The position numbers were made by a program, and so were the translations under genes. This document shows, piece by piece, positions 87 through 40,792 of a stretch of 41,165 nucleotides of DNA (within the stretch, counting starts at the first letter, position 1; the number at the start of each line of letters is the position of its first letter). Under the pieces are notes generated by a model. It was not told where the DNA came from. It saw nothing but the letters and a program-made list of their open reading frames with translations, and did no database searches. Origin of the DNA: a virus; IMG/VR virus record IMGVR_UViG_3300017963_000429, positions 1 through 41,165 of that record; one strand, 5' to 3'.

Positions 87-671
87 ATGAGCGGCGCGGC
101 AAAGCGACAGCCGGTAAGCCTACAAGTTTACCAGGGGAATAAAAACAAGCTGAGCGAGGCCGAGCTTGCCGCACGGGGCGACGCCGAGATCACAATGGGC
201 GATTTGAATTTTACCGCGCCCGCCGACATTAAAAAAGATAAACTGGCCTTAAAGAAGTGGCGCGAGGTCGTTAAGATTTACCGCGACGCTCAGCTTACCG
301 TGGTGAGCAATACCGACACGGGCGCGATCGCTCGCTACTGTATTTTGTATTCAGAGTATTGGCAATTATCCGAACAGCGCCGGAAAATTTCGGCTTTCGA
401 TTTCCCCGACGACGACACCAACGAGATTTTAGCTATTACCGACGACGATTACAGCCGGGCGCGCTCGCGGCGGCTTTATAATATCATGGAATATTTTACA
501 CGCCTCGACGGCCTCTTAAAACTTGACGACAAAATAAACCGCAAGCTTAAAGCGATCCTCGACATTGAGGATCGTATTTTCCTTAATCCGGCGGCCAAGG
601 TACGCACGTTACCGATCAAACGCAAGCCAAAAGAGCCCGACGGGATCGGCGATCTCGGTTTTGACGTATGA
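87..671 (+). CDS. terS: Terminase small subunit (P27 family)
   Basis: 194 aa. This is the DNA-recognition subunit of the packaging motor; it selects phage DNA and delivers it to the large subunit. The N-terminal region (VSLQVYQGNKNKLSEAE) and the length fit P27-type small terminases, which are found with HK97-like heads. The position directly before the large subunit, with a 4-nt ATGA overlap, supports the call. The start ATG follows AGGCGGCC. In a circular map the gene lies just after the tandem repeat array at 40788-41051, which may contain its binding sites (inference). Confidence 0.85.
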   Translation: MSGAAKRQPVSLQVYQGNKNKLSEAELAARGDAEITMGDLNFTAPADIKKDKLALKKWREVVKIYRDAQLTVVSNTDTGAIARYCILYSEYWQLSEQRRKISAFDFPDDDTNEILAITDDDYSRARSRRLYNIMEYFTRLDGLLKLDDKINRKLKAILDIEDRIFLNPAAKVRTLPIKRKPKEPDGIGDLGFDV

Positions 672-31974: not shown

Positions 31975-34222
31975 AAAACTACACGGCGCGGCCTTAGTGG
32001 CGGCTCGTTATATGCTTGTACCAATTAAGGCCGGGGAAAAGTACCCGGCTAAGAAAGCATGGCCTCAGCTTAGGGCAACACTACAAGACGTAGAGAGTTG
32101 GGCGACGAGCCGCTATTACGGCGGCCTCGGTGTACTCGGTGAGTTTAACCCAGGTATTGACATAGACGTACAAGACCGCGAGGTAGTCGATAAGCTCGTA
32201 GCGTGGTGTAAAGAGAACATAGGCGAAACCCCGATCCGTACCGGCAACGCGCCGCGAGTATTGATCCCTTGTGCCGCGCCGCCCGGCGGCCTCGGCGCTG
32301 ATAATAGCGCCAAGTATGAGGATGATTTAGGCGTTACCCACCAAATAGAGATCAAGGGCAAAGGCCAACAATGGGTCGCTTATGGTATACACCCCGGCAC
32401 GAAAAAACCTTATATTTGGAAAGGCGGCGATCTTCATTCATACGACGCCGATTTATTGCCATGTTTGACCGGTAAGAAGATCGCCGCTCTTTTCCAATAC
32501 TTTGAAAGCATAGCCCCGGATACGTGGCTTAAAATGAGCGAGGGTAGATCACGCGCCCGCGTTGGCGGCCTCGCGCCCGACGGCACTATACAAGGCGCTA
32601 CGGCTTTCGAGAATTACAAGCCCGCCCTCAATATAGATACGGATAGAATCCGATCGATACTGGCCGCGCTGAGCCCCGACGAGAGCGAATTAACGTGGCG
32701 CTCGGTAGGTATGGCGCTTTTCCACCAATACAACGGTAGCGACGAGGGTAAGGAAATTTTCCGCGAGTGGTCAGAGAATAGCGTAGCCTACGACTACGAC
32801 GAGATTAACGCCCGTTGGCCGTCGTGGGCGGCTAACACGTACGGCGGTAACCCGATCACCTTTGCCACGGTGATCCAAATGTATAACGAGGCTACCAAAA
32901 AGATAGACGATCCGACGCTCGTACAGAAAAGTAAAAAGCTCTCGGATTGGGAAAAGCGCTACGTTATGGTAGAGTTAGCGGAAAGCTCAGAGGTACACGA
33001 CGCCGGAGTACCGATCCACAAAGCCCGGCGGCATACCCTACGCGCTTTCAAAGAGCAGAACAGCGGCTATATACACCGTTATACCGACGTACTCGGTAAC
33101 GAGGCTACCGAGCCTATGGTAATAGCTTGGCAGAACAGCCGCAACGTACGCCGGTACGCGGGCTATACTTATCAACCAGGAAAGCCAAGGTTTTGCCCGC
33201 GCCCCAATAGCTACGACGACGATACGCTATACATAAATAACTTTTATTTCCCGCCCCACCCCGACGACATACCCGACTATAAAGAGCGGTTAGCCCCGTT
33301 TAAAAATCTGATCCGGCATTTGTTCCCCGAGGATAGCGAAAGGAAATGGATCATACAATGGTTAGCCCGGCTAATACAAAACCCCGAGGTACGATCGTTT
33401 GTAACGCCAATTAATATAACACCGATAACCGGCACGGGGCGCGGTATTCTTTTTGATATATTGCGGCTACTCGTAGGCGGCCACAATACCCACGACGTTA
33501 GCCCCGACGACATAGAGGGACGGTTTAACGGCTTTTTAGATAAGTGTTTGATCGCCGTTATCCAAGAGATCAAGGCTAACACCGGGGCGCGCAAGTTTCA
33601 AATATGGGAAAGAATGAAAAGCCTTTTAGCCGATACCGTCGCCAATATTCAGGCGAAAGGCCAAGACAGCTATACCGCCCACGTCTACGCTAACTTTCTT
33701 ATGTTCTCTAATAACCTCGACGCGCTACCGTTGCGCGACGTTAACGAGCGGCGTATATATGCTATGCGAGGCGCGAGCCGCCCGCTTAACAATAAAGAGA
33801 TCGACGAGATCATAGCGTGGAAAAAAGACGAGCTTAATATATCGGCGCTGTTTAAATACCTCAAGACGTACCCGGTAGACGAGGGCAATTTTAAGCGAGC
33901 GCCAAAGACGCTTACGAAAGTACAGATCGTTAACGCTACCGTCGGTATCGGCGGCGCTGATCTCGACGCTTGGCTATTGGAACAAGCGCCCCAGGTTTTC
34001 GATTATGACTACGCCGCCGAGGCGTTGGATAAGTACAGCGACGATATAGCCGCCGTCGGTATGAGCCGCGATCGGTTTCGCCGTATGCTCGTAGATAAAG
34101 GCTACCATAGCGTACAGATCAGGATCGACAGCGCTACCAGGAAATACGTTTATTATCACCCCGACAAAACCCCGAGCGACGCGGCCAAGCTCAGAGAGCT
34201 TTACAGCCAGATTAAAAAATGA
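31955..34222 (+). CDS. Primase-polymerase / helicase fusion
   Basis: 755 aa. Residues ~10-195 form a primase-polymerase domain with the catalytic GIDIDVQD (D69, D71) and an IEIKGKGQQWVAYGIHP block. A PriCT-2 linker follows at about 225-290 (IRSILAALSPDESELTWRSV). The C-terminal superfamily 3-like helicase (about 440-640) has the phosphate loop ITGTGRG, where the usual Lys-Ser/Thr is Arg-Gly, a Walker B-like CLIAVIQEIK and the sensor-like FLMFSNNLDALP. It should prime and unwind the phage replication fork. No other primase or loader is seen. Confidence 0.87.
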   Translation: MATTNYKKLHGAALVAARYMLVPIKAGEKYPAKKAWPQLRATLQDVESWATSRYYGGLGVLGEFNPGIDIDVQDREVVDKLVAWCKENIGETPIRTGNAPRVLIPCAAPPGGLGADNSAKYEDDLGVTHQIEIKGKGQQWVAYGIHPGTKKPYIWKGGDLHSYDADLLPCLTGKKIAALFQYFESIAPDTWLKMSEGRSRARVGGLAPDGTIQGATAFENYKPALNIDTDRIRSILAALSPDESELTWRSVGMALFHQYNGSDEGKEIFREWSENSVAYDYDEINARWPSWAANTYGGNPITFATVIQMYNEATKKIDDPTLVQKSKKLSDWEKRYVMVELAESSEVHDAGVPIHKARRHTLRAFKEQNSGYIHRYTDVLGNEATEPMVIAWQNSRNVRRYAGYTYQPGKPRFCPRPNSYDDDTLYINNFYFPPHPDDIPDYKERLAPFKNLIRHLFPEDSERKWIIQWLARLIQNPEVRSFVTPINITPITGTGRGILFDILRLLVGGHNTHDVSPDDIEGRFNGFLDKCLIAVIQEIKANTGARKFQIWERMKSLLADTVANIQAKGQDSYTAHVYANFLMFSNNLDALPLRDVNERRIYAMRGASRPLNNKEIDEIIAWKKDELNISALFKYLKTYPVDEGNFKRAPKTLTKVQIVNATVGIGGADLDAWLLEQAPQVFDYDYAAEALDKYSDDIAAVGMSRDRFRRMLVDKGYHSVQIRIDSATRKYVYYHPDKTPSDAAKLRELYSQIKK

Positions 34223-34315: not shown

Positions 34316-34344
34316 TTGAACATAAGCGCTTATGATAGTATAAT
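34316..34344 (+). promoter_or_regulatory. Strong promoter with palindromic operator in the spacer
   Basis: TTGAAC (34316-34321) and a perfect TATAAT (34339-34344) are 17 bp apart. The spacer holds the perfect 14-bp palindrome CATAAGCGCTTATG (34321-34334), placed so that a dimeric protein bound there would block RNA polymerase. The transcript should start near 34351 and carry the leader and the chain of small genes. Confidence 0.85.
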
Positions 34345-34637
34345 TATAGTATGAACTTCATTATTAAAAACTTCTCGACTTTCGTAACGCTCTTAAGCCT
34401 TGCGAGAATCGCGATTGAAAATTTACTCAACTAAGGACGGTAACGAATAGACGACTAAACTAATCGACGGGAAAGGGGAGAGAAATTCCTAGCCCGAAAA
34501 TCCGCGAACCCGTACCGGATACGAAAACAGAGAGAGCTAAAAAAGCCACTTCGGGAGAGTCGGAAACCGCTACTAAGTTTCCTTGACAAGTCTTTGAGAA
34601 TTAAGACGAAACTCTAACACTTAACAACGAGGTAAAC
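34345..34637 (+). ncRNA. Structured ~290-nt leader RNA, no supported gene
   Basis: The stretch between the promoter and the first small gene is purine-rich. It has several short hairpins: TTGCGA/TCGCGA (34400-34414), CGTA/TACG (34511-34523), GGAAAC/GTTTCC (34562-34582, extended by GTC/GAC) and GTCTT/AAGAC (34590-34607). The last two sit shortly before the ribosome site. A 27-codon open frame (34351-34434) begins at the predicted transcript start but lacks a ribosome site. The stretch may act as a leader, attenuator or separate small RNA. Confidence 0.5.
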
Positions 34638-34796
34638 ATGGCAACACTACCCGAAAAAATCGAGGCGTGGGTAAAAAGAGAATTTAACGCTAAGTACGTA
34701 CGGCAAGTTACTAACGACTTGATCGACGTAGCCGCCGGAAACCGCGAGGGCAACAAGTTTGAAAAAGAGGCCGTCGATTTCATTATTAACGGATAA
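34638..34796 (+). CDS. Small unknown early protein
   Basis: 52 aa (MATLPEKIEAWVKREFNAKY...). The ribosome site AACGAGGTAAAC is the same as in three following genes, which supports a true start. It is a mostly helical, charged protein ending in FIING. No family is recognised. It is the first gene after the leader and has no pseudoknot element in front of it. Confidence 0.65.
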   Translation: MATLPEKIEAWVKREFNAKYVRQVTNDLIDVAAGNREGNKFEKEAVDFIING

Positions 34797-34817
34797 CCAA
34801 TAACAGCGAGGTACAAA

Positions 34818-35021
34818 ATGATATTACCGGAAAATGGTTTTAAAAAATACCGCGAGGCGAAACGCTTTGCACAAGGCAAGGCCAACGCCGCGCCGGTTTT
34901 CTTTATTCAAAACACCGGCAATAAACAATACTATTGCCTTTGGAATATACCCGCCGATTGGAAAGGCGATAACGGCGTACTCAAAGCGCCGTTAAAGCTA
35001 CTCGACGTAGTATACTCATAA
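34818..35021 (+). CDS. Small unknown early protein
   Basis: 67 aa with a GCGAGGTACAAA ribosome site. It begins with a basic helix (KKYREAKRFAQGKANA), then a beta stretch (PVFFIQNTGNKQYYCLWNI). No family is recognised. Its stop codon abuts the first pseudoknot element. Confidence 0.6.
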   Translation: MILPENGFKKYREAKRFAQGKANAAPVFFIQNTGNKQYYCLWNIPADWKGDNGVLKAPLKLLDVVYS

Positions 35022-35086
35022 GCCCCACGTCGCCCGCCTCGGCGACATTAAATAAAGCGAGGCGCGAAAGTAGCACGGGGCTACAC
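35022..35086 (+). promoter_or_regulatory. Intergenic pseudoknot RNA element, copy 1
   Basis: Order of parts: GCCCC (35022-35026); stem 1 GTCGC/GCGAC; stem 2 CGCCTCG/CGAGGCG (3' strand 35058-35064), which pairs the loop of stem 1 with downstream sequence; A-rich linker ATTAAATAAAG; constant CGAAA; hairpin GTAGC-ACGGG-GCTAC. The 5' GCCCC can pair with the GGGG of that hairpin. The element starts one base after the stop of the upstream gene and ends 32 nt before the next ATG. Confidence 0.88.
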
Positions 35087-35118
35087 TTTAACCAATCACA
35101 ATTAACAACGAGGTAAAC

Positions 35119-35613
35119 ATGGCAACAATAAATACAGAACATGGCGAAATGATAAAGACAGCCGAGGGCTACGAGTACCGGGCTTGCAATATCGTTAAGG
35201 TTAACAGCCGTTGGGGCGGGCATAAGGATTTTACGCCTAACCAATCCCATTGGAAAATCAGCCGCCAAAGTGAACACGTTAAAGTTTATTTTAACGATAG
35301 CTACCCGGCGGCCAGTACCTTAAAAGAGGCTTGTGATACCATAGATCGGGCTTTCCGTAGCCACGAGAAAAACGTAGCGCGGTGTTTGGAAATGAAAAGG
35401 CTTAGGCCAATACATAACCTTATAAACGACGCCGAAAACGACTTAGACTTACCGGCTGAGTATGTTACGCGACATATGCGGCACGTATATACTAAGGCTA
35501 ACGTATTAGAATTTTTAGCGCTCGAAAAATACGCAAGTCTTAAAGACCGGCTCGACGAGGTTTTAGCCGAGCTTGAAAAATGGCAAGGTTTAAGTACTAA
35601 GTACACCGGATAA
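35119..35613 (+). CDS. Unknown early protein
   Basis: 164 aa with the shared AACGAGGTAAACATGGCA start context. Residues 1-75 are beta-rich (YEYRACNIVKVNSRWGG, HVKVYFNDSYPAASTL); residues 80-160 are helical (ACDTIDRAFRSHEKNVARCL, LKDRLDEVLAELEKWQGL). No membrane segment and no known family. Confidence 0.65.
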   Translation: MATINTEHGEMIKTAEGYEYRACNIVKVNSRWGGHKDFTPNQSHWKISRQSEHVKVYFNDSYPAASTLKEACDTIDRAFRSHEKNVARCLEMKRLRPIHNLINDAENDLDLPAEYVTRHMRHVYTKANVLEFLALEKYASLKDRLDEVLAELEKWQGLSTKYTG

Positions 35614-35614
35614 C

Positions 35615-35681
35615 GCCCCACGACGCCCGCCCCGGCGTCACTATAAATAAATCGGGGCGCGAAAGTAGCACGGGGCTACAC
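35615..35681 (+). promoter_or_regulatory. Intergenic pseudoknot RNA element, copy 2
   Basis: Same architecture as the first copy, with compensatory changes: stem 1 is GACGC/GCGTC and stem 2 is CGCCCCG/CGGGGCG. The linker is ACTATAAATAAAT, two bases longer. The 5' GCCCCAC and 3' CGAAAGTAGCACGGGGCTAC are unchanged. It begins one base after the upstream TAA and ends 24 nt before the next ATG. Confidence 0.88.
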
Positions 35682-35705
35682 TTTTAACTTAACAACGAGG
35701 TAAAC

Positions 35706-35966
35706 ATGGCAGTAAAAGAATACACAATAAATAAAGAGATTAGAGGCCGCGCCGCTTTAAAGGCTATCAACGTAAAGTTAGCGCCGGGTAGAATGATCAG
35801 GCTGAGCGTCGAAGAAGATTTATTTATATGTAACTACGACGGCGTTTTAGCCTTAGAGCCCTCGACTTACAAAGGCAAAGTCGAAAGCCGGATCATTAAC
35901 AGCAACGCCGAAACTAATAAAGGCGTAGGCGTGTTTATTATTACACGCTCTTTTACAGTAGCTTAA
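35706..35966 (+). CDS. Small unknown early protein
   Basis: 86 aa, AACGAGGTAAACATGGCA start context. It is beta-rich (AINVKLAPGRMIRLSVEEDL, GVFIITRSFTVA) and has no cysteine cluster apart from one Cys. No family is recognised. It is framed by pseudoknot elements on both sides. Confidence 0.62.
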   Translation: MAVKEYTINKEIRGRAALKAINVKLAPGRMIRLSVEEDLFICNYDGVLALEPSTYKGKVESRIINSNAETNKGVGVFIITRSFTVA

Positions 35967-35967
35967 C

Positions 35968-36032
35968 GCCCCACGTCGCCCGCCTCGGCGACATAAAATA
36001 AAGCGAGGCGCGAAAGTAGCACGGGGCTACAC
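35968..36032 (+). promoter_or_regulatory. Intergenic pseudoknot RNA element, copy 3
   Basis: Stem 1 GTCGC/GCGAC, stem 2 CGCCTCG/CGAGGCG, linker ATAAAATAAAG. It is identical over 65 nt to the fourth copy and differs from the first by one linker base. It starts one base after the upstream stop and ends 33 nt before the next ATG. Confidence 0.88.
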
Positions 36033-36065
36033 TTTCAACCAATCACAATTAACAACGAGGTAAAC

Positions 36066-36338
36066 ATGGCAATTAATTGGAACGAAATGAAAACAACAAA
36101 AGACGAGTACGGCATTATCGCCAAGATCGCCGAGCGGGCGACTAAGACCGTTAAGCGTGATCATATGTCTATTATGATGGACATAGAGGTAGTACATAAC
36201 AGCGTAGGCTTGCGGCTTTCCGATTTACTGGCCGCGCCTAATTTTGATTTTCTGCACGACGTTTGCGGTATTATCTCAAACCTTGATCGGTATACCGGAG
36301 AGCTTTTAAATTGCTTTTTGCCCCGGTACTCGGCCTAG
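36066..36338 (+). CDS. Small unknown early protein
   Basis: 90 aa, AACGAGGTAAACATGGCA start context. It is helical in the first half (EMKTTKDEYGIIAKIAERAT) and mixed later (DFLHDVCGIISNLDRYTGEL). No family is recognised. The last G of its TAG stop is also the first base of the following pseudoknot element. Confidence 0.62.
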   Translation: MAINWNEMKTTKDEYGIIAKIAERATKTVKRDHMSIMMDIEVVHNSVGLRLSDLLAAPNFDFLHDVCGIISNLDRYTGELLNCFLPRYSA

Positions 36339-36402
36339 CCCCACGTCGCCCGCCTCGGCGACATAAAATAAAGCGAGGCGCGAAAGTAGCACGGGGCTAC
36401 AC
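36338..36402 (+). promoter_or_regulatory. Intergenic pseudoknot RNA element, copy 4
   Basis: Identical in sequence to the third copy. Its first base is the last base of the upstream stop codon, so a terminating ribosome would sit on its 5' edge. The spacer to the next ATG is 34 nt and contains a GAAAGGATCAAAC ribosome site instead of the AACGAGG type. Confidence 0.88.
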
Positions 36403-36436
36403 TATACACCAATCACAATTAACGAAAGGATCAAAC

Positions 36437-37072
36437 ATGGCAACAATAGAAATAAGAAACGAGGCTAAAAGAGGTTGCGGCTACCGCAAGCCCGGCGGCC
36501 TCTATATGGTAACCGAGGGCGTTAGCGTCGCCGTACCGTGTTTACCCGTGCCTTTGCACGTTTGCCCGGTATGTTATCAAGGCGTAAAGGCTACACGCTC
36601 TTTTCAGTGGATCGAGCCCGGTAGGCTCTTGCTCGATCTCGTAGAAAAGAATACGCCCGCTTGCCCTCAGTGTATGGGGCTTACCCAGGTTTGCGCTATG
36701 GCCTCTACGCTCAAAGGTAAGGCCGGGCTTATGTGGATCGGCGACAAGTATTATACGCCCGAGTCTTTTAGAAAAGAGGCCGCCCAAATGGGGATCAGTA
36801 AGCGTATACCAAACGTGCCGAAAGACTTTAAGATCGGAGAGCATTGGGTTTTTCTCGGACACCGTAAGGCTATCGTCCAACACGTCGGACACGTTGGTAG
36901 CCAAGAATTGAAAGACGAGTATAAGCCCGGTATCTTTACCGCTTTTAAGCCCACGGCGATCGAGTACGTAGTTAAGCCCGACGACAGCGTAGAAAAGCTC
37001 GACAGCCTCGCCAAGCGCGGTATAACGCTCGTAGACGTCAAACCCATTAAAGAGCCCGAGCTTGATCTTTAA
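36437..37072 (+). CDS. Unknown phage protein with zinc-ribbon-like cysteines
   Basis: 211 aa from ATG at 36437; the frame is open upstream to 36311, but that would run through the pseudoknot element and has no ribosome site. The N-terminus has RGCGYRKPGGLYMV, a phrase I recall from a widespread uncharacterised phage family. Two CxxC pairs (C43/C46, C76/C79) suggest a zinc ribbon. The C-terminal half (KDFKIGEHWVFLGHRKAIV) is beta-rich. Function unknown. Confidence 0.68.
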   Translation: MATIEIRNEAKRGCGYRKPGGLYMVTEGVSVAVPCLPVPLHVCPVCYQGVKATRSFQWIEPGRLLLDLVEKNTPACPQCMGLTQVCAMASTLKGKAGLMWIGDKYYTPESFRKEAAQMGISKRIPNVPKDFKIGEHWVFLGHRKAIVQHVGHVGSQELKDEYKPGIFTAFKPTAIEYVVKPDDSVEKLDSLAKRGITLVDVKPIKEPELDL

Positions 37073-37137
37073 GCCCCACGACGCCCGCCCCGGCGTCACT
37101 AAATAACACGGGGCGCGAAAGTAGCACGGGGCTACAC
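37073..37137 (+). promoter_or_regulatory. Intergenic pseudoknot RNA element, copy 5
   Basis: Stem 1 GACGC/GCGTC, stem 2 CGCCCCG/CGGGGCG, linker ACTAAATAACA. It directly follows the TAA of the upstream gene and ends 31 nt before the next ATG. The change of linker bases contrasts with the constancy of both ends. Confidence 0.88.
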
Positions 37138-37168
37138 TTTTCTTATTCACTTAGCGAAAGGATCAAAC

Positions 37169-37519
37169 ATGGCATTATTTATAAAAAGAAAAGAGCATAC
37201 CATTAACGCCACTAAAGCCGAGCTATTAGAGGCTTTAGAAAATTTAAACCACGGCGTAGAAAATAATTTTTTTCCCGGTTGGATGACTAAATTAGCTAGG
37301 GAAACGATCGCCAAAGCCACGACACCGATCAAGGCCGAGCCGGTAAAAGTTAAGCGTTGCGCGGCTTGCCGCAACGGTGAACACGACAATTACGACGACG
37401 ACGTACGGCTTACCGTTGTAAGCGATCCGGCTACCGGTAAGCTCGTACACCGCGCTTACTTATGCGGCGAACACCGGCAAGCGTACGACTACGACGGCTT
37501 TAAGATTACCATTAAATAG
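37169..37519 (+). CDS. Small unknown protein with possible zinc site
   Basis: 116 aa, GAAAGGATCAAACATGGCA start context. The N-terminal half is helical (ATKAELLEALENLNHGVENN). The C-terminal half has CAACRNGEH and CGEHRQAYDYDG, a C-x2-C...C-x2-H arrangement that could hold zinc. No family is recognised. The stop TAG overlaps the next pseudoknot element by one base. Confidence 0.62.
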   Translation: MALFIKRKEHTINATKAELLEALENLNHGVENNFFPGWMTKLARETIAKATTPIKAEPVKVKRCAACRNGEHDNYDDDVRLTVVSDPATGKLVHRAYLCGEHRQAYDYDGFKITIK

Positions 37520-37583
37520 CCCCACGCCGCCCGCCCCGGCGGCATTAAATAAATCGGGGCGCGAAAGTAGCACGGGGCTACAC
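37519..37583 (+). promoter_or_regulatory. Intergenic pseudoknot RNA element, copy 6
   Basis: Stem 1 is GCCGC/GCGGC, a third version of the covarying pair (C-G where other copies have T-A or A-T). Stem 2 is CGCCCCG/CGGGGCG and the linker ATTAAATAAAT. It begins on the last base of the upstream TAG and ends 33 nt before the next ATG. Confidence 0.88.
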
Positions 37584-37616
37584 CTTTTTTATTCACTTAA
37601 CCCGAAAGGATCAAAC

Positions 37617-37955
37617 ATGGCAACAATAGAAAAAACCAGAAAAGCGATCGGCACGTACACGCTTGAAAAGCCCGAGGTTTTCCAAAAGCTTTACGAGTGT
37701 GCGGCGTGGTATACCGATATAGAAGTACAGCCGGGCGTTTACCCGGTTACTACCGACGGGTACTGGCTTTTCGTAGAGTTACCGGGCGTTATTGTTTCGG
37801 ATAACTTTCAAAGCCTTTTCGCGGGTATGCCGATCGGCGACGCTTACGACAGAAAGCAAAACGCCGGTAAGCCCGCTACCTATTGGATACAGACACAAGA
37901 GTACGCCGTTAAATGTAACCCACGGTATAACTTAACCGGCGAGGTAAAAGTATGA
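37617..37955 (+). CDS. Unknown early protein
   Basis: 112 aa, GAAAGGATCAAACATGGCA start context. Aromatic-rich with mixed alpha/beta features (VFQKLYECAAWYTDIEVQPG, YWLFVELPGVIVSDNFQSLF). No family is recognised. Its stop overlaps the next ATG (ATGA), so the following small gene is coupled to it without a pseudoknot in between. Confidence 0.62.
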   Translation: MATIEKTRKAIGTYTLEKPEVFQKLYECAAWYTDIEVQPGVYPVTTDGYWLFVELPGVIVSDNFQSLFAGMPIGDAYDRKQNAGKPATYWIQTQEYAVKCNPRYNLTGEVKV

Positions 37956-38107
37956 GCGGCTTAACTATGCTAGAGCTTAACTATATGATCGAAAAAGTTA
38001 AGACGGCTAAAGACATATCCGAGGCCGAGCGGCGCGAGCGGCTTAAGACTTACCGCGCTATGCGGCGCGAGCTAAGAAAGAAGATCGCCGAAATGCTTAA
38101 CAGCTAA
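37952..38107 (+). CDS. Small helical unknown protein
   Basis: 51 aa, overlapping the upstream gene by 4 nt and preceded by GAGGTAAAAGT. It is almost entirely helical and charged (MLELNYMIEKVKTAK, SEAERRERLKTYRAMRRELR), perhaps a short coiled coil. No family is recognised. It is followed one base later by the last pseudoknot element. Confidence 0.62.
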   Translation: MSGLTMLELNYMIEKVKTAKDISEAERRERLKTYRAMRRELRKKIAEMLNS

Positions 38108-38108
38108 A

Positions 38109-38173
38109 GCCCCACGACGCCCGCCCGAGCGTCAATAAACAATGTCGGGCGCGAAAGTAGCACGGGGCTACAC
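38109..38173 (+). promoter_or_regulatory. Intergenic pseudoknot RNA element, copy 7
   Basis: The most divergent copy and the most informative: stem 1 GACGC/GCGTC and stem 2 CGCCCGA/TCGGGCG. Two stem-2 pairs change together (C-G to G-C and G-C to A-T), fixing stem 1 at 5 bp, stem 2 at 7 bp and a single unpaired C between them. The linker is AATAAACAATG. The ends are unchanged. It ends 34 nt before the next ATG. Confidence 0.88.
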
Positions 38174-38207
38174 TATACATCAATAACTTAACCAGAAAGG
38201 ATCGCTT

Positions 38208-38408
38208 ATGCCCGATAACATAAGAGCGCTTAACAAAGCGCAACAAACCCAATATTTGATACTGGCTGATTTTCTAGCCGATAAATTTACGCTCGACGCT
38301 ACCGACTATTGTATGTTAGCCGAGATCGCCGAGCATTTCACGTTAACGGCTCAAACGAGCTTAGCTGAGTACAGCGTTAACAATACCCTAAACCGCCACG
38401 GGGGTTAA
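38208..38408 (+). CDS. Small helical unknown protein
   Basis: 66 aa with an AGAAAGGATCGCTT ribosome site. It is helical throughout (NKAQQTQYLILADFLADKF, DYCMLAEIAEHFTLTAQTSL). No family is recognised. It is the last gene preceded by a pseudoknot element. Confidence 0.6.
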   Translation: MPDNIRALNKAQQTQYLILADFLADKFTLDATDYCMLAEIAEHFTLTAQTSLAEYSVNNTLNRHGG

Positions 38409-40411: not shown

Positions 40412-40792
40412 ATGTACAGCGCTAAGAGCATATGTAGACGGGTAGGCTGTAACGCCCTCGTAGAAAGGCCGGGCTACTGTGATATACATACGGTATACGA
40501 GCAAGAGCGCTTTAAGCATTTGAAGCGAGCGCCCGACGCCTCGGCCTTTTATAGTGGGGCTAAGTGGACTAAGACGAGCCGAGCCTTTCGTAAGGCTAAC
40601 CCGCTATGCGCTGAGCATAAGCGCGCCGGGATCATTGTTAAGGGCGCTATAGCTGATCATACAATAGAGCGAGCCGAGCTTATGCGGCAAGGGCTCGATC
40701 CCTACGATTGGAAGTATCTACAAAACCTCTGTACGCCATGCCATAATAAGAAACTCAGACAGCGGCAGAACAAAGCGAAAGGTTTTATATGA
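40412..40792 (+). CDS. HNH endonuclease
   Basis: 126 aa. The HNH core is IADHTIERAEL (D82-H83), then N105 and H111, with zinc-binding Cys66 and C107-x2-C110 (LCTPCHNKK). An additional N-terminal cluster (C8, C13, C23, H26) could hold a second zinc. In HK97-like phages an HNH protein encoded next to the terminase is required for packaging cleavage; here terS would follow if the map is circular. The ribosome site is AAGGACAAAACC. Confidence 0.88.
   Translation: MYSAKSICRRVGCNALVERPGYCDIHTVYEQERFKHLKRAPDASAFYSGAKWTKTSRAFRKANPLCAEHKRAGIIVKGAIADHTIERAELMRQGLDPYDWKYLQNLCTPCHNKKLRQRQNKAKGFI

Follow-up and report, generated by a model that had tools for sequence, protein, structure and literature searches.

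What role does a structured RNA play when it recurs seven times between the small genes of a phage? The question is raised by IMG/VR record IMGVR_UViG_3300017963_000429, a 41,165-base phage contig (positions 1 to 41,165, here called the window) that encodes a terminase, a portal protein, DNA polymerase A, DUF2800 and a primase. In the region from the primase gene, which ends at 34222, to an HNH-like gene at 40412, seven copies of an element of 65–67 nucleotides (nt) lie among small genes, all on the plus strand and each between consecutive plus-strand genes. By analogy with known ribozymes, we consider it somewhat probable that the element cleaves itself and belongs to an undescribed ribozyme class, probably one with a double pseudoknot; it would cut the operon transcript between genes.

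A pseudoknot kept by compensated changes

An initial annotation of this locus had listed seven copies with constant ends, and both observations were confirmed; its gap of 0–2 nt behind the preceding stop codon had to be corrected to −1 to +1 nt, the smallest value being −1 because copies 4 and 6 each overlap a TAG stop by its G (Table 1). The distance to the next ATG is 24–34 nt, with a ribosome-binding site in between, and the constant 3′ part extends to ...CTACAC.

Alignment of the seven copies gives six distinct sequences. Every copy fits an H-type pseudoknot consisting of a stem B of 5 base pairs (bp), one unpaired C, a stem C of 7 bp, 0 nt and an A-rich linker, the third loop, of 11 nt (13 nt in copy 2). 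In the numbering of copy 1 the helices are A (1–5/56–60), B (8–12/21–25), C (14–20/37–43) and D (49–53/59–63); their order is A B C B′ C′ D A′ D′, and all four can be formed in every copy. Among the six distinct sequences, standard pairs fill 100 per cent of the pair cells of helices A, B and C, and four pairs have changed on both sides: columns 9/24 (A-U, U-A, C-G), 18/41 (C-G, U-A), 19/40 (C-G, G-C) and 20/39 (G-C, A-U). When the partners were slid by 1–3 columns, pairing fell to 32–56 per cent, and none of 500 shuffles matched the observed pairing or covariation score. Outside the linker, 8 of 54 columns are variable, and these are exactly the columns of the four compensated pairs (chance about 5e-7). 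Since compensated pairs show selection on pairing within a single strand, the element acts as RNA, and that it is a conserved structured RNA seems to us practically certain. The fold put forward initially (5-bp stem, unpaired C, 7-bp stem and linker of 11–13 nt) thus holds for all seven copies, as does the reading of its paired changes as selection on RNA structure, which the slide and shuffle controls fail to reproduce.

RNAfold, which considers nested folds only and no pseudoknots, returned minimum-energy folds that differ between copies, and a rough energy estimate places the pseudoknot near, not below, these nested minima. Because energy alone is undecided, the fold is decided by covariation. 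Helices A and D never vary across the copies, so covariation cannot test them, and they are possible helices. The pairing of the 5′ GCCCC with a downstream GGGG, annotated as a second pseudoknot or a switch, can indeed form; GCCCC/GGGGC (helix A) is by itself a closing stem around the pseudoknot, and would give a second pseudoknot only together with the 3′ hairpin GTAGC/GCTAC (helix D). Five-pair A and five-pair D compete for two bases. Three pairs of A and five of D would be compatible, and in the geometry proposed here they may form a continuous 8-bp helix, GUAGC+CCC/GGGGCUAC, making a second pseudoknot around the first.

The element matches no family in Rfam 15, either at the gathering score or at E ≤ 10, in agreement with the initial view that no described motif has this layout. 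The searches of Rfam and of genomes proposed there as a check yielded no known family, and they also turned up no homologue in the collections of viral sequences, genomes, phages and plasmids. A BLAST search of the phages and plasmids found nothing real, and exact and degenerate pattern scans of viral and genome contigs gave chance matches only, none with the helices of the element. A sequence-independent descriptor recovered the seven copies and nothing else in 1.38 Mb of other loci. Terminase and primase led to five kin phages, represented by nearly full-length contigs (TerL 73–79 per cent and primase 73–80 per cent identical), and none of the five carries an element.

Known ribozymes in equivalent slots

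The main clue, missed in the initial annotation, lies about 400 nt 5′ of the first element, where a type III hammerhead ribozyme ends 22 nt upstream of the first small gene (E value 1.3e-4 in a permissive Rfam scan and 1.1e-7 in a single-family search). Read by hand, it has the three stems of a hammerhead, namely III (34556–34560/34611–34615, 5 bp), I (34562–34567/34577–34582, 6 bp) and II (34590–34594/34603–34607, 5 bp), together with a GAAA (34608–34611), a GUC site with a predicted cut at 34561|34562 (GTC|GG) and paired positions 3 and 8. In its core, TTGACAA (34583–34589), the C3-G8 of the consensus CUGANGA is replaced by U3-A8; in the active fold these two positions form a pair. More generally, Rfam may overlook natural hammerheads that carry this swap. 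A descriptor allowing the swap gave one match in seven phage genomes, which is this hammerhead, and one match in 20 rounds of shuffled genomes. The leader ACACTT...AACAACGAGGTAAACATGGCA is common to the first operon gene, behind the hammerhead, and to the genes behind the elements.

One kin phage, G010 (TerL 79 per cent and primase 80 per cent identical), has an intergenic repeat, likewise in the accessory region, that occurs three times; each occurrence is a type-P5 twister ribozyme (RF02684) scoring above the Rfam cut-off. These ribozymes begin 2–6 nt after a stop codon and end 14–21 nt upstream of the next ATG, from which a ribosome-binding site separates them. In 50 viral records, 44 of them unrelated, RF00008 and the twister models gave no match at E ≤ 0.001 beyond the hammerhead of the window and these twisters.

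The element and the G010 twisters share the layout of stop, RNA, ribosome-binding site and start, an occurrence in multiple copies among small accessory-region genes, a length of about 50–65 nt and a pseudoknotted fold. The element has, however, no sequence or core similarity to twister, and the twister covariance models (P1, P3 and P5) found no match in the window. With the hammerhead it shares the slot before the same leader and a GAAA beside a helix, but it has neither the CUGANGA core nor a three-way junction; RF00008 found no match in the seven elements, where GAAA is present and the UGA core absent. A permuted hammerhead was rejected by hand because the UGA required by the core is absent from every copy.

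The fact that several ribozyme classes share one genomic place was the logic behind pistol, hatchet and twister-sister (PMC10085705; PMC4604425). Here, ribozymes of two unrelated classes hold equivalent slots, which makes a structured RNA of no known family in the slots of the element a ribozyme candidate; self-cleavage is therefore taken as its most likely action.

Other described RNAs resemble the element in part. Pistol likewise has a 5-bp hairpin whose loop pairs downstream and an A-rich linker, but it has 10 conserved nucleotides, a P2 that separates the linker from the strand of the pseudoknot, and a P3 hairpin whose cleavage junction is 2 nt long, whereas the element has no P2 and has its closing stem 5′ of the hairpin. 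Pistol was rejected by hand on block order and core residues, with P2 absent and no Rfam match. Hepatitis delta virus (HDV)-like and theta ribozymes, which occur in phages (PMC10879173), are also small with a nested double pseudoknot, and the CGAA run of the element resembles their J4/2. The P3 hairpin that separates P2 from the 3′ strand of P1 in these ribozymes is, however, missing from the element; the helix order of the element differs from P1a P2a P3 P1b (P4) P2b with a catalytic C in J4/2, there was no Rfam match and this class was rejected by hand. The antitoxin ToxI of type III systems also consists of H-type pseudoknot repeats, but as tandem repeats beside a toxin gene. No ToxN-type gene was seen nearby and the copies form no tandem array; a type III toxin–antitoxin RNA was rejected, and the antitoxin-like decoy suggested initially has no support. 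Integron attC sites were rejected as well, no hairpin with attC boxes being present.

Self-cleavage and competing explanations

Of the features of a small self-cleaving ribozyme, the element has a fold conserved by covariation and shares its places with known ribozyme classes, the latter being a supporting feature and not a definition; its compact size and pseudoknots would also fit. In the proposed mechanism, the H-type pseudoknot of B and C would have its A-rich linker docked on B, while the 3′ strand of the second pseudoknot would wrap the first by pairing with GUAGC and with CCC at the 5′ end. Invariant unpaired bases (A6 C7, C13, C44 GAAA, A54 C55 and the 3′ tail) would make up the active site. 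A cut just behind the stop codon of the upstream message, or inside the element, would release that message, the downstream message would keep its own ribosome-binding site, and the operon transcript would be divided into single-gene messages, with a presumed effect on expression. We see an even balance for the full proposal of a new doubly pseudoknotted self-cleaving class of about 65 nt, whose seven copies cut the operon into single-gene messages and which is interchangeable with hammerhead and twister.

Several points weigh against self-cleavage, which we infer from structure and placement. Rfam scans reveal no catalytic core of a known ribozyme class in the element. All copies come from one contig, so the covariation rests on six distinct sequences and does not bear on helices A and D. 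Known ribozymes occupy the slots in one of the five kin phages only, the genes neighbouring them are not homologous to those of the window, and what the two phages share is the layout. The hammerhead scores below the RF00008 gathering score of 48.5 bits, its U3-A8 core being expected to be active, and it sits in the leader, not between two operon genes. Much of the evidence would equally be expected of a site for a protein nuclease or of an element that stabilizes messages.

Cutting by a host or phage ribonuclease, with the pseudoknot as recognition or presentation element, appears unlikely to us. The placement argument applies to it equally, and the long invariant single-strand/hairpin tail CGAAAGUAGCACGGGGCUACAC would suit a nuclease site, yet the equivalent slots are occupied by catalytic RNAs, which act without protein, and seven complex pseudoknots exceed the usual needs of such a site. 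Known ribozymes in these slots would be left unexplained by an element stabilizing messenger RNA, an explanation to which we give little credence: a compact, GC-rich pseudoknot directly at the stop codon could well block exonucleases and shield the upstream 3′ end or the downstream 5′ end, but such a barrier requires an entry point between the genes, which again implies cutting. Among the roles suggested initially, a transcript cutting site has gained independent support from the hammerhead and twisters, and positive evidence for ligand sensing was not found.

The tight distance to the stop codon, with 6–8 nt from stop to stem, and the sharing of one element ahead of seven genes would agree with translational control, in which binding of a phage protein or the ribosome to the pseudoknot, or an encounter of the pseudoknot with the terminating ribosome, would govern termination, reinitiation or a regulon; the spacing is like that of recoding pseudoknots. 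However, the element ends 24–34 nt from the start codon, clear of the ribosome-binding site, and readthrough peptides would run in differing frames, those of six of the seven copies terminating within the A-rich linker, so that stop-codon readthrough was rejected for its different frames and early stops and translational control as a whole seems quite improbable. That the element is a weak intrinsic terminator, or a repeat that has no function as RNA and was spread by recombination, is a very remote prospect. In three copies the GTAGC/GCTAC hairpin is followed by a T-rich stretch, and the leader and gene starts are repeated too, which indicates that whole junctions were duplicated. Yet intrinsic terminators were rejected because shuffles contain terminator-like sites just as often, four copies fail the terminator scan, and the compensated pairs of stems B and C require selection on pairing, so that covariation strongly disfavours this explanation.

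Ribozymes of different classes in related phages here occupy one well-defined role, before the ribosome-binding sites of small genes and mostly right after the preceding stop. If the element self-cleaves, it adds a ribozyme class and a concrete answer to the purpose of phage ribozymes.

The operon, and intergenic features in the kin phages

The operon genes start at 34638, 34818, 35119, 35706, 36066, 36437, 37169, 37617, 37952 and 38208. The gene at 36066–36338 encodes a DUF6874 protein (phrog_12453) with relatives about 40 per cent identical in Pseudomonas, Burkholderia and Bordetella phages. A promoter-like site 5′ of the operon, with the palindrome CATAAGCGCTTATG between its hexamers, might start the operon transcript; this assignment is weak because similar sites are about as frequent in shuffles.

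Table 1. Positions of the elements, the known ribozymes and the operon features (window numbering unless a locus is named)
Feature	Position	Strand	Remarks
Copy 1, type 1	35022–35086	+	Gap of 0 nt to stop TAA
Copy 1, helix A/A′	35022–35026/35077–35081	+	
Copy 1, stem B	35029–35033/35042–35046	+	
Copy 1, stem C	35035–35041/35058–35064	+	
Copy 1, constant tail	35065–35086	+	
Copy 2, type 2	35615–35681	+	13-nt linker; gap of 1 nt to stop TAA
Copy 3, type 1	35968–36032	+	Gap of 1 nt to stop TAA
Copy 4, type 1	36338–36402	+	Identical to copy 3 over 65 nt; G of stop TAG shared
Copy 5, type 2	37073–37137	+	Gap of 0 nt to stop TAA
Copy 6, type 2 stem C	37519–37583	+	Stem B GCCGC/GCGGC; G of stop TAG shared
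Copy 7, type 3	38109–38173	+	Stem C CGCCCGA/TCGGGCG; gap of 1 nt to stop TAA
Hammerhead ribozyme, type III	34554–34617	+	Rfam RF00008, 35.4 bits; slot before first operon gene
Promoter-like site	34316–34344	+	TTGAAC-17-TATAAT, 5′ of operon; 10/12 consensus
Leader and ribosome-binding site	34616–34637	+	AACACTTAACAACGAGGTAAAC; same leader at genes behind elements
Small-gene operon	34638–38408	+	Mostly without known family
Twister P5 ribozymes of G010	L033 17238–17288, 17566–17616, 17963–18013	−	Rfam, above cut-off

Features of other kinds were seen in further kin phages. In G001 (L040 13238–13436), about 170 nt of intergenic sequence are structured, with a closing stem of 10 bp (TACTGGCCGT/ACGGCCAGTA) and a fold z-score of −3.7. 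This stretch starts a few nt after a stop codon and stops before the next ribosome-binding site; it has no match in Rfam, and its place makes it a further ribozyme candidate. On the minus strand of G008, two gene leaders (L042 11769–11831 and 11995–12057) are 95 per cent identical and carry a GGGGCC-UAC-GGGCCCC hairpin after the stop, and a GC-rich gap of 180 nt before the next gene (L042 11330–11512) folds no better than shuffles. In G006 (L039 11080–11440) a small gene is flanked by a perfect 13-bp inverted repeat, ACTAACCTACGCA / TGCGTAGGTTAGT. Finally, many kin contigs end about 600–740 bases before terL (window 87–671), which is consistent with a fixed genome end at that place.

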